A DNA stretch of 7,029 nt from Candidatus Latescibacterota bacterium. Lineage in GTDB: Bacteria > JAAXHH01 > JACQVL01. Positions within the stretch are counted from its first letter, which is position 1. Every line of letters starts with the position of its first letter. The translations under genes were made by a program, and so were the position numbers. The notes beneath the pieces were generated by a model, which was given only the letters and a program-made list of their open reading frames with translations, was not told where the DNA came from and did no database searches. Location: NCBI GenBank assembly GCA_016209865.1, contig JACQVL010000238.1:1-7029 (forward strand). Reading direction: 5' to 3'. Shown piece by piece: positions 121-7,029 of the stretch.

Positions 121-2793
121 TTATTTCACCAGGGTCATCCTGTGGGTCTGGCTGAACCCGGTGCTCGTCGTCAGCCGGTACAGGTAGACGCCGCTTCCTG
201 CGCTCAGTCCCTGTACGTTTCGCCCATCCCAGGCGACCTCATACCGTCCCGGAGCCTGCTCCGCGTCCACCAGGCGGATGACTTCCTGGCCTAACAGGTT
301 GTACACCGTGAGCGTCACATAGGCTGCCTGCGGGACATCATAGACAATCTGTGTCGTTGGGTTGAACGGGTTCGGCCGGTTCGGCCTGAGCGCGAACGCG
401 GCGGGCATCGGAGGGAGCTTCACCGTGGTCGTCCCCAGGATGGCGACCTGGCCGGATTCCAGCGTCTGAGGATCACCGACACTCACCGTCGCGGGACTCG
501 CCGGTCCGGCGATGACTCTGGCCTGCTCATCGTGGTTGAGAATCTGGTAGATCATCTCCACGACGTCCAGAATATTGATCGCCCCGTCCCCGTTGATGTC
601 CGCTAAGAAGAACCCGAACGCGCCCGGGGCCGGCCTCGGCAGCCGGCCGAGGATGATGAAGACTTCGGTGATCACATCGATGATGTCGATCCGCCCGTCT
701 CCGGCTCCGAGCTGGCCTCCGCCGACATCGCCGGGACGCCCGATCAGGATCGTTCCCTGTTGGACAGCATGCGGAATATCCTGGCTGGGAGGCGGGGATG
801 ACAGGACGTCATCCGACACGGCCAGCAGGATCGGCGTCCCCGCAGGCGTTACCGGGGCGATCGTGTAGATCACATAGCCGAGGGTGTACTGGCCGGGCCG
901 GAGGGTATCCCCGCTCGTACTGAAGAACAGCACCGTCGTCAACCCGTTCTCGTCGGTCGAGAACGTCGTGGTGAATCCTCTCTCCTCCAGGCTATTGATC
1001 AGGCCGGTGAACATGGCGTCCGTCGTGGGCGTCCCATCGACCGTCGGCTGGACAGCAAACTGCAGCCCGGACACATCATGGTTGGCGGACAGCCGGACCT
1101 CCATGATCGCCTGCTGGCCGGGCGCGGCGAACGTATCGACGAACCGGAGAGTGTCGGGCGGTGCCTCCGGCTGGGGCGGAACGATCTGGCCCCACCACGT
1201 CCCCCAGCGGTCGCGGTAGGTACCGGAGCTGGCGGGCGTGGCCGCGTATTCCTGGATCGTCCACAGGTCGGTGTCGTTCACCGGGTCGACGACGGTGCTG
1301 CTGTAGTCTCCCCAGCGATTCGTCCCGGACCCGTAATCCTTGAAATACGACGCCTCCCCGGCCTTCAAGACCGCGTCCGTCCGGAACGTACCGGCCGGGT
1401 CGGCGGCCGCCCGGAACGCGTAGTTCGCGCTCGCATACTGCGTGGCCGAGAAACGCGAGAACCCGATGAGGACGTCGTTGTTGCGGTTGACCGCGATGCT
1501 CGGGTAGGCGTAGGACGTCGGGCCGGCCGTATCATCGATCCGTCCCTGTTGCTCGACCGCGCCGTCGGGGGTCAACCGCCACCATTGCACCGCGCTGCGC
1601 GCCGGCGACCCGCCGGCCGGGAGGAACACCGTGTGCGCACACCAGAGGGAACCGTTGCGGTAGAGGGTGTTCTGCATCCGCGAATCCCCGGCGTCGATCT
1701 TCTGCGTCGAGCCGAGCTGGGGCGCGAAATTGCTCGAGGGTGAAAAACTATCCCAGGGTGAGGATGTCGAGGGAAAGGCGACGCTGAGCGTCAACACCTC
1801 AGCGCCCACCGGGCCGGTGATCGTGCTCAGGCGCAGGTAGCCGCTCCCTTCAAAATCCCCGTTCCAATCCTCGACCAGGTACATCGTGGGCACCGTCGGG
1901 TCGTACGTGATGGCCGGGGTTTGACTGAACCCGCCCAACGTGTCTTGCATCAGGGTGAACCGGCCAGTCCCGCCCGCGTAGAGGTCCGCCTTATCGAAGA
2001 CGTAGACGTCGGACCGGACGAAGGCGTTGTTAGAGACGGTGAACATGTTCACCTGGACGACGATCCAGTCTTTATTGAACCCCAGGCTGGGATAGTCCGC
2101 CCAGACGGCGTTGTCGGGGTCGGCATCGACGCGGTAGAGGTTCCACGTACCCGTCGGGTCGCTCGTCTGCGAGACTCCGATGAGGACGGATGAAGCCGAT
2201 GAACGGGCATTCGCGCAGGCGGTAAACATCCACCGGTTCTGGTAGGGGTCATAGAGCACTTTAGGGTCGAACGCGCTCGGACTGCTCAGACTGGCCCAGA
2301 AACTGTTGAGGGAGACGGTGCTGAGCACTCCGCCCGTCCGGTCCTGGATGCGGACCTGGGTGTTCAACGTGACCATCAGATGGGTCAACCCCACCGCGCC
2401 GTGGGTGTCGGGCGGGATGCTGGCGTTGTTATCGTCGAGGCCGAGAAAACTGGACGCGGGGGCCGGGGACACGCCCGTCAACGGGGGCGGCACCGGTTCG
2501 AGGACGCGACGGCTGGGGCTACCCGTCCCGCTTGGCACCGGACGGTTGCGGGGGCCGGGCAGGGGACGGTGGAGGGCGTGCGGAGGGACGGGGGTGTCGG
2601 GCAGCACCGATTTCTGCCGGGCTACTTGAGCCAGCTCGACGACCGCTCGTTCCGTCGCCTCTCCGGGCGTGCCGGTGATGGACGACTGCGCAGCCGCCTG
2701 GGGTGGGATTCCCACACACAGCCCCAAGAGCGCGATCACTCCCGCCAGCCCGACACTCCGCCAGAGGCTCGTCACCGAACGCCGATCCTTCAT
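121..2793 (-). CDS. Secreted beta-propeller-like protein with cohesin-like domain, dockerin-like pair and T9SS/FlgD-type C-terminal domain
   Basis: An 890-residue exported protein of unknown substrate. Residues 1-36 are a signal peptide: basic MKDRR, hydrophobic core, AAAQ-type cleavage region. Residues about 65-115 are a Pro-rich linker. Residues about 115-540 look like a beta-propeller of the kind annotated as hypothetical exported proteins, with FDPKVLYDPYQNRWMF (175-190), DPTGTW (212-217) and the recurring YPSLGFN (234-240) and YPSIAVN (430-436). Residues about 548-685 resemble a cohesin-type beta domain. Residues 688-753 form a dockerin-like pair; the second loop is canonical (D732, N734, D736, D743) and the first has extra residues between D689 and D699. 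Residues about 797-890 are a FlgD-like/Por-secretion-type tail with NPFNP (808-812), a YNLLGQEV strand and a GVYLYRL strand. The start at 2793 is chosen because it begins the signal peptide and has a good ribosome site; the in-frame ATG at 2856 falls inside the promoter. It is likely exported by Sec and then anchored or released by a type IX-like system. The domains are assigned by eye. Confidence 0.88.
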   Translation of the reverse strand: MKDRRSVTSLWRSVGLAGVIALLGLCVGIPPQAAAQSSITGTPGEATERAVVELAQVARQKSVLPDTPVPPHALHRPLPGPRNRPVPSGTGSPSRRVLEPVPPPLTGVSPAPASSFLGLDDNNASIPPDTHGAVGLTHLMVTLNTQVRIQDRTGGVLSTVSLNSFWASLSSPSAFDPKVLYDPYQNRWMFTACANARSSASSVLIGVSQTSDPTGTWNLYRVDADPDNAVWADYPSLGFNKDWIVVQVNMFTVSNNAFVRSDVYVFDKADLYAGGTGRFTLMQDTLGGFSQTPAITYDPTVPTMYLVEDWNGDFEGSGYLRLSTITGPVGAEVLTLSVAFPSTSSPWDSFSPSSNFAPQLGSTQKIDAGDSRMQNTLYRNGSLWCAHTVFLPAGGSPARSAVQWWRLTPDGAVEQQGRIDDTAGPTSYAYPSIAVNRNNDVLIGFSRFSATQYASANYAFRAAADPAGTFRTDAVLKAGEASYFKDYGSGTNRWGDYSSTVVDPVNDTDLWTIQEYAATPASSGTYRDRWGTWWGQIVPPQPEAPPDTLRFVDTFAAPGQQAIMEVRLSANHDVSGLQFAVQPTVDGTPTTDAMFTGLINSLEERGFTTTFSTDENGLTTVLFFSTSGDTLRPGQYTLGYVIYTIAPVTPAGTPILLAVSDDVLSSPPPSQDIPHAVQQGTILIGRPGDVGGGQLGAGDGRIDIIDVITEVFIILGRLPRPAPGAFGFFLADINGDGAINILDVVEMIYQILNHDEQARVIAGPASPATVSVGDPQTLESGQVAILGTTTVKLPPMPAAFALRPNRPNPFNPTTQIVYDVPQAAYVTLTVYNLLGQEVIRLVDAEQAPGRYEVAWDGRNVQGLSAGSGVYLYRLTTSTGFSQTHRMTLVK

Positions 2794-2799
2794 CGCGAT

Positions 2800-2810
2800 C
2801 CCCTTTCCTC
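2800..2810 (-). promoter_or_regulatory. Ribosome binding site fixing the start at 2793
   Basis: The minus strand reads GAGGAAAGGGG, ending 6 nt before the ATG at 2793. This purine-rich site, with the signal peptide that starts there, decides between this ATG and the in-frame ATG 63 nt further upstream. Confidence 0.75.
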
Positions 2811-2827
2811 TCCGAAACACAACGCGC

Positions 2828-2856
2828 AGTATAGACCCGCCTGCATCGGCTGTCAA
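2828..2856 (-). promoter_or_regulatory. Sigma70-type promoter of the secreted-protein gene
   Basis: On the minus strand a perfect -35 box TTGACA (2851-2856) and a -10 box TATACT (2828-2833, 5 of 6 to consensus) are separated by exactly 17 nt. Transcription would start near 2821, giving a leader of about 28 nt before the ATG at 2793. The -35 box overlaps the upstream in-frame ATG at 2856, which rules that codon out as the start if this promoter is used. Repeat copy C ends about 18 bp upstream of the -35 box. Confidence 0.85.
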
Positions 2857-3010: not shown

Positions 3011-3039
3011 TTTACAACCCCCGCTCCGCGTCGTATACT
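3011..3039 (+). promoter_or_regulatory. Sigma70-type promoter of the four-gene operon
   Basis: TTTACA (3011-3016, 5 of 6 to consensus) and TATACT (3034-3039, 5 of 6) are separated by exactly 17 nt. Transcription would start near 3046, leaving a leader of about 38 nt with a strong ribosome site (AAGGAGAGG, 3071-3079) before the ATG at 3084. Its -10 hexamer is the same as that of the divergent promoter. Confidence 0.85.
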
Positions 3040-3083: not shown

Positions 3084-5132
3084 ATGCACTCCACGTATCG
3101 TCCGTCCAGCGGGCTGTTCGAGGTGCAGGCCAGCGCGGCTGACCGCTCCACGATCGACGTCTTCCCGAACGAACGAGCTCCCGACCCCGTCCCGCGCTTC
3201 CTGTACGGCAAATTCTGTGAACACTTAGGCTGGAACATCTACAACGGGATGTGGGCGCAGGCGCTCCGGAACCCGGGGTTCGAGGGCTGGGACTACGTCG
3301 CCGCCACGCCCGCCGGGATGGCCAACCGCATCCGCCATGAGGAAGAGGCAGTCGGCGTCGCCGGACTGATGGCCGGGTTCGAGCGGGGACTCGCCTTCTG
3401 GTGGGTGGCCTACGGCGATGGGGTCGTCCGGTACACGCTCGATCCAGACGCCTTCAACGCAGACGCCGCGCAGAAGGTCGAAGTCGCCGGGCTGGCGAGC
3501 GAGGAAGTCGGCGTCATGCAGCCGGTCTTCCTGCCGCTCCACCGCGAGCGCCGGTACGAATTCAGCCTCTGGGCGCGGGGGACGACCGGCCGGCTGCGGG
3601 TGACGATCTGGGATGAGCGGCGGACGACGCGGCTGGCCAGCGGCACGATCCTCGGCATCGGCGGCACGTGGACGGAGCACCGGCTGACGCTCGCCGTCGA
3701 TGAGACAGTCCCGAAGGGCGCGCTGCTGTACTTCAGCATCGGACTGCTGGAGCCCGGCACCGTCTGGCTCGACCAGGCGTTCCTGTTCCCCGCCGACCAT
3801 GTCGACGGGTTCGACCCGGACGTCATCGCGTCCTGCCGGGCCGCCCGCCTCCCGCTCCTCCGGTATCCCGGCGGGAACTTCGCCTCCGGCTACCACTGGG
3901 AAGACGGGATCGGCCCCGTCCATCAGCGGCCGACGAGACTCAACCAGCCGTGGCACATGATCGAGCCCAACCACGTCGGGACGGACGAATTCATGGCGTT
4001 CTGCCGGGCGGTCGGGTGCGAGCCGCTGATCTGCGTCAACGCCGGGGACGGGACGCCGGACGAGGCGGCGCACTGGGTGGAGTACTGCAACGGGAGCGTT
4101 GAGACGCCGTACGGGGCGCTGCGGGCGAAGAATGGCCACCCGGAACCGTACGGGGTGGTCTACTGGGAACTGGGGAATGAACTCTGGGGGGATTGGCAGG
4201 TCGGCTATTGCTCCCCGGAAACCTATGCAAGACGGTACGTCCGGTTTTACGAGACGATGCGGACGGTCGATCCCTCCATCAAATTCATCGCAAACGGCGG
4301 GGGAACTGGAGAGGAGCGGGACTGGAACGCTCCCTTGCTCCGCGACCACGCGGGGATCGTGCGATCGCTTTCCATTCACTCCCTGATCGGCTCGCGCATC
4401 CCGGCGGAGACAAAGCCGGAGGACGCCCATCTCGCCTTAATGGCCTACACGACATACTACGACCAGTACCTGCAGGAACTGGCAGATCAGATGAAACAGG
4501 CCGGGGTGGCGGACCCGAAGCTCGCCATCACCGAGCTCATCATCTTCACCTGGAAGGAGGGGCTGCCGAAGTACATCTCGTTGTCTGAAGTGCTGTACCT
4601 CTCCGGCATCATCCACTCCTGCATCCGCCAGGGCAACCTGGTCGAGCTCATCACGCACACCGCCCTCGTCAACCATGGCGGCGGACTGGGTAAGGTTCGG
4701 GAGATCGTCTACCCTCATCCTGTCTTTCTGGCATCACAGCTCTACGCCACGCAATCGGGCGTCTGGCCGGTGCGCATCCGCACCGCCTGCCCGACGTTCG
4801 ACTCCGCCGTCCCCTCGATGCCTGCGGTGAAGGGCGCACCCTGCCTGGATGCGGTCGCTCTGCTGGATGAGAAGGGCACCGAACTGACGCTCATCGTCGC
4901 CAACCGCGACCCGTCGCAACCCAGAACGGTGGAGATCGCGCTGCACGACTTTCCCATTCAGGGGACGGTCGGTGTCCGGGCGATCACCGGGCCGAGTTTC
5001 TTGAGCGAGAACACGTGGGACAGGCCGGGCGCGGTCGCGTTGACAGAATCCGCGATGACGACGGACGGCGGCTCGGTGTACGAACTCCCACCGCACTCAC
5101 TCACGGCACTCGTGTTCCATGAAAGGGCATAA
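3084..5132 (+). CDS. GH51-type alpha-L-arabinofuranosidase-like glycoside hydrolase
   Basis: A 682-residue retaining glycosidase of the GH51 type, expected to remove non-reducing alpha-L-arabinofuranosyl groups; the real substrate is not established. The N-terminal strand holds KFCEHLG with E46. Residues about 90-240 are an inserted beta-sandwich resembling a CBM4/9-type carbohydrate-binding module, ending in VWLDQAFLFP. The TIM barrel follows: RYPGGNF (R260, N265) and HWEDGIGP, then WELGNE with N365 and acid/base E366, H432 in SIHSL, and probable nucleophile E484 in AITEL. The 118-residue gap between E366 and E484 is close to the 119 known for the Geobacillus AbfA pair (E175, E294). Residues about 580-680 form the C-terminal beta domain. 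There is no signal peptide, so the enzyme is predicted to be cytoplasmic and to act on imported oligosaccharides or glycosides. The start has GGAG 7 nt upstream. First gene of the operon; the next gene starts 6 nt after its stop. The nucleophile context differs from the common DEW form, so specificity for arabinose should not be assumed. Confidence 0.9.
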   Translation: MHSTYRPSSGLFEVQASAADRSTIDVFPNERAPDPVPRFLYGKFCEHLGWNIYNGMWAQALRNPGFEGWDYVAATPAGMANRIRHEEEAVGVAGLMAGFERGLAFWWVAYGDGVVRYTLDPDAFNADAAQKVEVAGLASEEVGVMQPVFLPLHRERRYEFSLWARGTTGRLRVTIWDERRTTRLASGTILGIGGTWTEHRLTLAVDETVPKGALLYFSIGLLEPGTVWLDQAFLFPADHVDGFDPDVIASCRAARLPLLRYPGGNFASGYHWEDGIGPVHQRPTRLNQPWHMIEPNHVGTDEFMAFCRAVGCEPLICVNAGDGTPDEAAHWVEYCNGSVETPYGALRAKNGHPEPYGVVYWELGNELWGDWQVGYCSPETYARRYVRFYETMRTVDPSIKFIANGGGTGEERDWNAPLLRDHAGIVRSLSIHSLIGSRIPAETKPEDAHLALMAYTTYYDQYLQELADQMKQAGVADPKLAITELIIFTWKEGLPKYISLSEVLYLSGIIHSCIRQGNLVELITHTALVNHGGGLGKVREIVYPHPVFLASQLYATQSGVWPVRIRTACPTFDSAVPSMPAVKGAPCLDAVALLDEKGTELTLIVANRDPSQPRTVEIALHDFPIQGTVGVRAITGPSFLSENTWDRPGAVALTESAMTTDGGSVYELPPHSLTALVFHERA

Positions 5133-5138
5133 CTTCGC

Positions 5139-5954
5139 ATGAAGCTGTCCTCGGAAGAATGCCAGCAAAACGCGTTGACGCCAGAGCATCTGGCTCTGGC
5201 GTTGCGGTCGTTGCACGAATCCGGCTACGTGATTCTGGAAGGAGTCCTGCCCCAAGCCTGGGTGGAGGAGATGCGGGTCGCATTTGACACGGAATTGAAG
5301 CGCGTCACTGCCGGGAAGGAGGGAGAGGTCGAGAAGTCAAAAGGTCACTATGGGACATCCGCCCCCCTGCGTCTGCCGTTCCTGGATCCGCTCGCCATCG
5401 AGAACCCGTTCGCCCTCCAGATCATGGAATCGGCGATGGGAACGGACATTTTCTCCTACCTCCCGTACGGCTGCAACACTGCCTGGCCGGGGTCGGGGGT
5501 GCAGCATATTCACCGGGATACCGGTCATCTCTTCGTCGGGACATCGTACGTGCTCCCGGTCGCCATGGTCGTGGTCAACATCCCGCTGGTCGACTTCACC
5601 GTCGAAAACGGCTGCACAGAGGTGTGGCCAGGTTCTCACCTGATCGCCGACCCTGACCCGGCCGCCGCGCTCGACCCGTACCATGTCTGCACCGAAGAGC
5701 GGGCCGCCCAGATCCCGTCCGCCCGTGTGACCATGCCAGCCGGTTCGGTCGTCGTGCGCGACATGCGCGCGTGGCATCGAGGGATGCCCAACCACACGCA
5801 GACGATCCGGACGATGCTGGCCCTCGTCTACTTTCGCCAGTTTTACAACATCTGCCATCTGAAGTACGGGAACCCGATTCCGCGTTCGACGTGGGAACAA
5901 CTTTCGGAGCGGGCGCAGCGTCTGTACCGGTACACTCCGGTTGCGGAGGGATAA
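5139..5954 (+). CDS. PhyH-family Fe(II)/2-oxoglutarate-dependent dioxygenase
   Basis: A 271-residue soluble enzyme of the phytanoyl-CoA dioxygenase (PhyH) superfamily, which uses Fe(II), O2 and 2-oxoglutarate to hydroxylate a substrate, releasing succinate and CO2. The iron triad is visible: H125 and D127 (HRD) and distal H213 in AWHRGMPNH. R224 lies 11 residues after H213, the same spacing as H264 to R275 in human PHYH, and is the expected 2-oxoglutarate anchor. ENGCTEVWPGSH (156-167) is the family's usual strand-turn motif. All catalytic residues are present, so it should be active. The fold is shared by enzymes acting on lipids, amino acids, antibiotics and small polar molecules, so the substrate cannot be read from sequence; the neighbours suggest a sugar or sugar-derived compound. 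The ribosome site is modest (AAAGGG about 11 nt upstream), consistent with translational coupling to the preceding gene. Confidence 0.9.
   Translation: MKLSSEECQQNALTPEHLALALRSLHESGYVILEGVLPQAWVEEMRVAFDTELKRVTAGKEGEVEKSKGHYGTSAPLRLPFLDPLAIENPFALQIMESAMGTDIFSYLPYGCNTAWPGSGVQHIHRDTGHLFVGTSYVLPVAMVVVNIPLVDFTVENGCTEVWPGSHLIADPDPAAALDPYHVCTEERAAQIPSARVTMPAGSVVVRDMRAWHRGMPNHTQTIRTMLALVYFRQFYNICHLKYGNPIPRSTWEQLSERAQRLYRYTPVAEG
5945..5950 (+). promoter_or_regulatory. Ribosome binding site fixing the start at 5956
   Basis: GGAGGG lies 5 nt before the ATG at 5956, within the last codons of the dioxygenase gene. It favours this ATG over the in-frame TTG at 5941, which lies upstream of the site and would add only five residues (MRRDN). 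Confidence 0.75.
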
Positions 5955-5955
5955 C

Positions 5956-6771
5956 ATGCAGGTCATCTATTTCACCAAATTCCTCAAAGGCTACAGCGCC
6001 GCACAGATCGGCGAGCTGGCGAAGAACCTCAAGTTTGACGGACTCGACCTCGCCATCCGGGCGGGACAGTGCGTCAACCCCTCGAACGTCACGGAAGCCT
6101 TGCCTCAAGCCCTGGAGGTCTGGCGCGCCATGGGGCTTACGGTCCCTCTGGCCACGCTGGAAGGGAGTGCCGTCGATCCTCATCAGCCGGACGTCCAGGC
6201 GATCTTCGAGGCCTGCGGGACGGCGGGGATTCCTTGTATTAAATTGGGCTACTGGACGTGGAAGGCTGGACAGTTCTACTGGGACGATGTGACGAACATC
6301 CGCCGGGCTCTCGACGGGTTCCAGCAGTTGGGAGAACGGTACGGCATCTGCAGCCTGATCCATACTCACAGTGATCGTTTCTACGCCTCCAACGCCTCGG
6401 GCGCGATGCACCTGGTCAGAGGCTTCGACCCCCGCTATATCGGAGTCTACCTCGACCCGGCCCACCTGGCGCTCGACGGAGAGACGCTCCCCATGGCGCT
6501 CGACATCGTTCGAGGCTACCTCAAGATGGTCGGCGTCAAGAACGTGCGGTATCAGCCGTCGACCGCTCACGACGGCCCCCGATGGAAGACGGATTGGTGC
6601 CTGCTGTCCGAAGGGTTGGTGGATTGGCCGGGGACGATCCAGCTCCTGAACGATGCGGGCTACGACGGCCCGCTGAGCGTGCATGGAGAGTATTCCGCCT
6701 CGGAGGAAACGGTCGAGATCCTGAAATCGGTCGCCGCTGACATGGCGTCTCTCAGGAGGTTTGCCTCATGA
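5956..6771 (+). CDS. Xylose-isomerase-like TIM-barrel protein (sugar phosphate isomerase/epimerase family)
   Basis: A 271-residue protein of the xylose-isomerase-like/AP-endonuclease-2 TIM-barrel superfamily, whose members mostly epimerise or isomerise keto-sugars or inositol derivatives with a divalent metal. Conserved landmarks are FDGLDLAIR near the N-terminus, CIKLGYW, LDPAHL with D167 and H170, and the final barrel strand SVHGEY with E245. The metal site is altered against the D-tagatose 3-epimerase type (E, D, H, E). The expected first Glu is replaced by IHTH (H136, H138), and the expected His of the HVKD motif is Gly (G193 in GVKNVRY). D167 and E245 are kept. It may bind metal through H136/H138, as some IHNH-type relatives appear to, or use a different chemistry. 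No signal peptide. It starts 1 nt after the dioxygenase stop and its stop overlaps the next start, which implies coupled translation and shared function. Exact reaction unknown. Confidence 0.85.
   Translation: MQVIYFTKFLKGYSAAQIGELAKNLKFDGLDLAIRAGQCVNPSNVTEALPQALEVWRAMGLTVPLATLEGSAVDPHQPDVQAIFEACGTAGIPCIKLGYWTWKAGQFYWDDVTNIRRALDGFQQLGERYGICSLIHTHSDRFYASNASGAMHLVRGFDPRYIGVYLDPAHLALDGETLPMALDIVRGYLKMVGVKNVRYQPSTAHDGPRWKTDWCLLSEGLVDWPGTIQLLNDAGYDGPLSVHGEYSASEETVEILKSVAADMASLRRFAS
6754..6760 (+). promoter_or_regulatory. Strong ribosome binding site for the hydro-lyase gene
   Basis: AGGAGGT lies 7 nt before the ATG at 6768, inside the last codons of the preceding gene. With the ATGA stop/start overlap (6768-6771) it fixes the start and indicates coupled but efficient translation. 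Confidence 0.8.
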
Positions 6772-7029
6772 ATGAAGCTCAACAAGCCCGCCTGGCCATG
6801 CGTCGCGGGGAGTGGACAGGGCCGACAGTCTACAAAATCCCCGGCTACGTCCAGTGCAACCTGGTCGTCCTGCCGAAAGCAGACGCGTATGAGTTTTTGC
6901 TCTACTGCCAGCGGAACCCCCGCCCCTGCCCGTTGATCGACGTCACCAACCCCGGCGATCCGACCCCGCGCCTGGCCGCGCCCGACGCCGACCTGCGCAC
7001 CGACCTGCCCCGGTACGCCGTCTACCGGC
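6768..7029 (+). CDS. D-glutamate cyclase / putative hydro-lyase family protein (YcsI/DUF1445), 5' part
   Basis: The first 87 residues of a gene that continues past the window; family members are about 260-270 residues long. The visible part carries the family's hallmark strings: ARLAMRRGEWTGPT, PGYVQCNLVVLP, EFLLYCQRNPRPCPL, DVTNPGDP and DLRTDLPRYAVYR. The family includes Bacillus YcsI and the domain of mammalian DGLUCY, which reversibly dehydrates D-glutamate to 5-oxo-D-proline. Many bacterial members are annotated only as putative hydro-lyases, and the substrate here is not proven. The start is the ATG at 6768, which shares an ATGA with the stop of the barrel-protein gene and has AGGAGGT upstream. 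It is the fourth gene of the operon, and its job beside a glycosidase, dioxygenase and isomerase is unclear; dehydration of a sugar acid is one possibility. The catalytic part lies outside the window. Confidence 0.88.
   Translation, partial: MNEAQQARLAMRRGEWTGPTVYKIPGYVQCNLVVLPKADAYEFLLYCQRNPRPCPLIDVTNPGDPTPRLAAPDADLRTDLPRYAVYR

Follow-up and report, generated by a model that had tools for sequence, protein, structure and literature searches.

A four-gene operon of a GH51-like glycosidase, a KanJ-like PhyH dioxygenase, an isomerase-like barrel and a YcsI-family protein, with a possible role in the catabolism of a modified glycoside

The kanamycin B dioxygenase KanJ converts kanamycin B to 2′-oxokanamycin, in which a sugar carbon bearing an amino group becomes a ketone (PMC5533434). 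Its gene belongs to a cluster for aminoglycoside biosynthesis. Poribacteria have a striking abundance of PhyH genes (PMC3909097), and most PhyH genes of Poribacteria and of the phylum of our source genome have a substrate yet to be assigned. Solved structures are available for GH51 alpha-L-arabinofuranosidases of Thermotoga (3s2c and 3ug3), for the inosose dehydratase IolE and sugar epimerase barrels (3cny and 3p6l), and for YcsI/UPF0317 proteins (3db9 and 2pif). A gene cluster on Rhizobium plasmids contains KduI, a GH39 glycosidase, a barrel, a hydroxyacid dehydrogenase and a mandelate racemase-like protein in this order, and its barrel lies directly behind the glycosidase and is 36% identical to one of the proteins described below (gene C). 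The Rhizobium cluster differs from our operon in that its glycosidase is of another family, PhyH is absent, and ABC importer genes adjoin it. In the library searched, we found no paper on the combination of PhyH, glycoside hydrolase and xylose isomerase.

The window analyzed here is the whole stretch of 7029 bases, which is identical to its source contig (C185, in an assembly of 356 contigs that is 83% complete). Four genes, A to D, follow one another on the forward strand (Table 1). The preliminary description read them as a single transcription unit with a ribosome site before each start, and spacing, Shine-Dalgarno sites and the lack of an internal terminator-like site all argue for this reading. 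The open reading frames and starts were confirmed, with gaps of 6 nt between A and B (5133-5138) and 1 nt between B and C (5955), and a 4-nt ATGA overlap of C and D (6768-6771). The Shine-Dalgarno-like sequence reads AGGAGAGG before gene A, AAAGGG, the weakest of the four, before gene B, GGAGGG before gene C and AGGAGGT before gene D. Terminator-like sites were found only inside genes or upstream of 3084, with none in the intergenic gaps of genes A-D, and a search for RNA elements found none. A sigma-70-like site lies 45 nt 5′ of the start codon of gene A; two promoter-like sites were found in the region by consensus match only, versus 0.5 expected. The window ends within gene D, and position 7029 is thus the contig edge rather than the end of the operon.

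Table 1 Features of the operon in the 7029-base window
Feature	Position	Strand	Evidence
Gene A, GH51-type glycosidase (putative), 682 aa	3084..5132	+	ORF, Pfam, PDB alignment
Gene B, PhyH-family Fe(II)/2OG dioxygenase, KanJ-like, 271 aa	5139..5954	+	Pfam, PDB match
Gene C, AP_endonuc_2 (xylose-isomerase-like) barrel, 271 aa	5956..6771	+	Pfam, alignment
Gene D 5′ part, YcsI/DUF1445 putative hydro-lyase, 87 codons	6768..7029	+	rest on contig C100
Sigma-70-like promoter site, TTTACA-17-TATACT	3011..3039	+	consensus match only

The protein of gene A matches the Pfam families ASD1_dom and CBM_4_9, with 33.9 bits for PF22848 against a cut-off of 22.2. Among solved structures it is closest to GH51 arabinofuranosidases (E 2e-78), with which it shares the catalytic barrel (residues 239-674) and both catalytic glutamates. 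These residues, Glu366 (in GNE) and Glu484 (in TEL), are kept in 10 of 10 aligned homologs and are in register with 3s2c. It differs from the GH51 enzymes in that a CBM_4_9-like domain (residues 98-219) precedes the main part of the aligned barrel and that TEL replaces DEW at the nucleophile, and it scores 215 bits against the ArfA equivalog NF051901, below the cut-off of 625. Gene A encodes a putative GH51-like arabinofuranosidase or related glycosidase, for which arabinofuranoside hydrolysis is predicted. No obvious signal peptide was seen by eye. The nearest homologs in the named collection come from Armatimonadetes/Chthonomonadia and similar metagenome-assembled genomes (47-49% identity), and they stand without genes B, C and D. 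As already noted in the preliminary description, ara genes are absent, with none among the neighbors on C185 or the overlapping contig C100, and an ordinary arabinose operon was rejected.

Gene B encodes a PhyH-family protein (Pfam, 1.7e-24), and its best solved relative is KanJ (E 1e-36), with the next best PhyH at 1e-7. The similarity to KanJ (6s0r and 7cl2) extends over nearly the full length, with the iron and 2-oxoglutarate residues in register. The iron triad (H125, D127 and H213) and the 2-oxoglutarate arginine (R224) are invariant in nine sequences of the phylum and kept in all eight valid comparisons of a second homolog set, from which a row with a mis-set frame was left out. Unlike KanJ, gene B sits in a glycosidase operon. 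We predict from this kinship that gene B is a KanJ-like dioxygenase that may oxidize a sugar carbon bearing nitrogen.

The genomic contexts of gene B-like genes are consistent with a sugar substrate. In Azospirillum, two Skermanella and two Caballeronia they adjoin genes for LacI and for a sugar ABC importer, and in both Caballeronia an aldose 1-epimerase follows this set. Further neighbors are GH43 in Gloeothece (beside a more distant homolog, 27% identity), GH3 and pectate lyase in one genome each (G306 and G199), and in another (G054) a 297-aa protein that is weakly GH43-like, below the cut-off. Gfo/Idh dehydrogenases adjoin such genes within the phylum. None of five more distant PhyHs taken as control has sugar-type neighbors, in a comparison where the sample is small and the choice of controls is partly subjective. 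Because genes for glycosidases, polysaccharide lyases and sugar importers repeatedly adjoin the KanJ-like PhyH clade in different bacterial lineages, this clade may act on sugars like KanJ, which is a testable guess toward which these pairwise links point. Each of the 16 genomes of the phylum has 13-29 PhyH-like matches, an abundance that fits that of Poribacteria (PMC3909097), and a PhyH gene beside any given operon is less surprising for this reason. In two genomes (G001 and G014), the end of a KanJ-like PhyH gene is overlapped by the gene of a protein (L063:1163-2068 and L066:2-775; 71% identical between the two) that lacks a Pfam match and resembles isochorismatases on visual inspection.

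Gene C matches AP_endonuc_2 (5.7e-14; 52.9 bits, cut-off 31.1). It had been called an isomerase-like barrel; the isomerase function is uncertain, as the usual Glu-Asp-His-Glu metal set is not invariant. The Asp is kept, while the other positions are H/Q, non-His and mostly E245, and the single-sequence AlphaFold2 model (pLDDT 38) is too poor to place the metal residues. Weak profile similarity (~1e-6) to IolE and sugar epimerase barrels covers the C-terminal half, including shared HxH and D-x-x-H segments. Gene C differs from these barrels in lacking the His before the conserved Lys and in its invariant residues, which include R35, H138, D167 and K195 across 16 sequences.

Relatives of gene C also occur beside sugar-degrading genes. 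In addition to the Rhizobium cluster, the barrel lies between a GH36-like protein and MR_MLE in G060, and between a galactonate dehydratase and a second barrel in G054, where DUF2961, which we take to be GH172, follows. In G336, and in identical order in G061, a hydroxyacid dehydrogenase, the barrel, a Gfo/Idh protein and MR_MLE stand in a row. The relative G014 has, in one operon and within ~5 kb, a six-hairpin glycosidase followed by a tandem pair of PhyHs and a relative of gene C (37% identical). This cluster shares the logic of genes A-B-C, with a non-homologous glycosidase and only distantly related PhyHs, and it is the best single support for a shared pathway. Such independent contexts bear out the proposed link to carbohydrate catabolism for the PhyH and the barrel. 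Most sampled lineages of the barrel family have no adjacent glycosidase. The tandem PhyHs of G014 (L073:2639-4316), located between glycosidase and barrel, are duplicates with nearly identical 5′ ends. In G006 and G012 (genus g3), the barrel gene follows that of a large protein by ~20 nt (L070:8514-10568 and L074:6087-8111), which in G006 is DUF6785/DUF6784 and might be a membrane partner.

Gene D continues on contig C100, the start of which overlaps the window end by 322 bases (L003:1-322, window 6708-7029) with 99% identity and four mismatches. These mismatches suggest two strains in the source sample, and the overlap is as expected when an assembler splits at strain variation, with a repeat copy as the alternative. 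C100 completes gene D (YcsI, 253 aa, L003:61-822). Three further genes follow on the same strand, for an alpha/beta hydrolase of two domains (767 aa), a zinc dehydrogenase (338 aa) and, truncated where the contig stops, a second PhyH. The zinc dehydrogenase is most similar to models of threonine, inosose and comparable dehydrogenases, none of which it matches above cut-off. A relative of the hydrolase, 63% identical, is found in G015, where a sulfatase and a PhyH precede it. The preliminary description proposed to look downstream for transporters, kinases, dehydrogenases or a regulator. This yielded the zinc dehydrogenase, and neither a transporter nor a regulator was seen beside the operon on C185 and C100. 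No contig overlapping the far end of C100 was found, only short matches of 37-52 nt.

The complete protein of gene D matches PF07286 (D-Glu_cyclase, 1.2e-41; 142 bits, cut-off 25) and, over its whole length, the YcsI/UPF0317 proteins 3db9 and 2pif (E 1e-66 and 1e-60). It differs from the latter in its location in a glycosidase operon and in scoring 310 bits against the equivalog PRK05463, below the cut-off of 324. The mammalian D-glutamate cyclase is a two-domain protein of DUF4392 and DUF1445 (PMC5339696), whereas gene D contains PF07286 alone, without DUF4392, and does not fit the mammalian DGLUCY type. Of the earlier label, a hydro-lyase of the D-glutamate cyclase family, the family membership stands and the cyclase name rests on that mammalian protein.

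The operon is made of ordinary enzymes in an unusual combination that is private as a set among the genomes searched. The preliminary description had counted a neighborhood confined to this genome as a refutation of its pathway, and this is what we found. Of the phylum's 15 further genomes, none has the four-gene order or YcsI itself, and relatives of A, B and C lie together in none of them. Among 384 sampled genomes, with the barrel in 27, the gene B-type PhyH in 7 and YcsI in 12, these three never co-locate outside this genome, and in 11 other genomes no PhyH, barrel or GH51 gene lies within 1.5 kb of YcsI. Several of the genomes are fragmented, and the family of our source is represented by one genome, so its closest kin are not included. 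After these searches we reject conserved linkage of the four genes, and with it the strict claim that their pathway is conserved, because A-D never occur together elsewhere in the sample.

On balance, we consider it probable, by a modest measure, that the operon forms an intracellular catabolic route for a modified glycoside. This reading is supported by the spacing and coupling of the genes, the GH51 kinship of gene A with its intact catalytic residues, the KanJ kinship of gene B with its intact iron site, the sugar-gene neighbors of B and C, and the G014 cluster. Gene A, as an intracellular exo-glycosidase, would release a sugar, probably furanosidic. Gene B would then hydroxylate a substituted ring carbon, with loss of an amino or O-methyl-type substituent, to give a keto sugar (or free hydroxyl), and the IolE/epimerase-like barrel of gene C may isomerize or dehydrate this product. 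Gene D, together with the hydrolase and the zinc dehydrogenase of C100, might finish the conversion. Gene D holds the place of the enolase-superfamily dehydratase in other clusters, which makes dehydration here an attractive guess. The substrate, the order of the steps and any role of gene D are what we infer from these similarities. Against the modified-glycoside route count the lack of A-D together elsewhere, the missing sugar link of gene D, the abundance of PhyH, the lack of an adjacent glycosidase in most sampled barrel lineages, and the missing transporter and regulator, as well as the join of C185 to C100, which depends on the short overlap with mismatches described above.

It is possible, although rather unlikely in our view, that A-C are sugar enzymes, and that gene D, perhaps with the downstream genes, is a recent joiner, co-transcribed and serving unrelated amino-acid or 5-oxoproline metabolism. 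YcsI is missing from the rest of the phylum, gene D shares ~50% identity with proteins from distant bacteria, and YcsI neighbors elsewhere are PxpAB/5-oxoprolinase, Nramp, ggt, TRAP and amidase genes, none of the contexts inspected tying it to sugars. The proposal that the hydro-lyase dehydrates the released sugar is weakened by these usual settings, and together with the mammalian origin of the label they make it a guess. However, gene D is coupled to gene C through ATGA and has a strong Shine-Dalgarno site, its G+C and third-position G+C match those of gene A, and the dehydratase near gene C relatives in other genomes makes a hydro-lyase at this place at least plausible.

A modified-riboside salvage role for A-D, in which gene B is a demethylase of 2′-O-methyl nucleosides or a methylated furanose (FJS/PHYHD1 type), is improbable. 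A Poribacteria PhyH demethylated 2′-O-methyl nucleosides (PMC12709175), and a purine nucleoside permease lies near the B-like gene of Skermanella, but gene B is far closer to KanJ than to other solved PhyHs, and no PHYHD1 entry is among its PDB matches up to E 0.001. GH51 enzymes are not known to be nucleosidases. Least likely, we think, is a biosynthetic role akin to that of KanJ in kanamycin production, with A-D modifying a metabolite that is glycosylated or contains an amino sugar: KanJ is biosynthetic and the second PhyH of C100 is weakly similar to chlorinating enzymes, but no glycosyltransferase, aminotransferase or carrier gene was seen in 11.6 kb, and homologs of B and C elsewhere accompany importers and glycosidases.

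Beyond the modified-glycoside reading of this operon, the real interest lies in several unrelated bacteria, in which the PhyH and the barrel each recur next to genes of sugar degradation. We tentatively raise the idea, doubtful as it is at present, that KanJ-like PhyHs and barrels with H138/D167/K195 are parts of a widespread, undescribed oxidative route that strips substituents from modified sugars after glycosidase release in diverse bacteria, and that this operon carries both parts together. If true, bacteria would have in the oxidative loss of amino or O-methyl groups a general means of feeding on modified glycans.

Divergent from the operon, the window encodes a 911-aa protein (121-2856, minus strand) that carries dockerin-like DINGDG repeats and, at its C terminus, a FlgD_ig/Por_Secre_tail sorting domain, and a relative of this protein adjoins a KanJ-like PhyH in G001 (L068:4512-5570). 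The divergent intergenic region contains a perfect 15-bp inverted repeat at 2893-2927 (CCCCCTTTCTCTCCC / GGGAGAGAAAGGGGG), which lies near two divergent promoter-like sites and is possibly an operator or an intergenic repeat.
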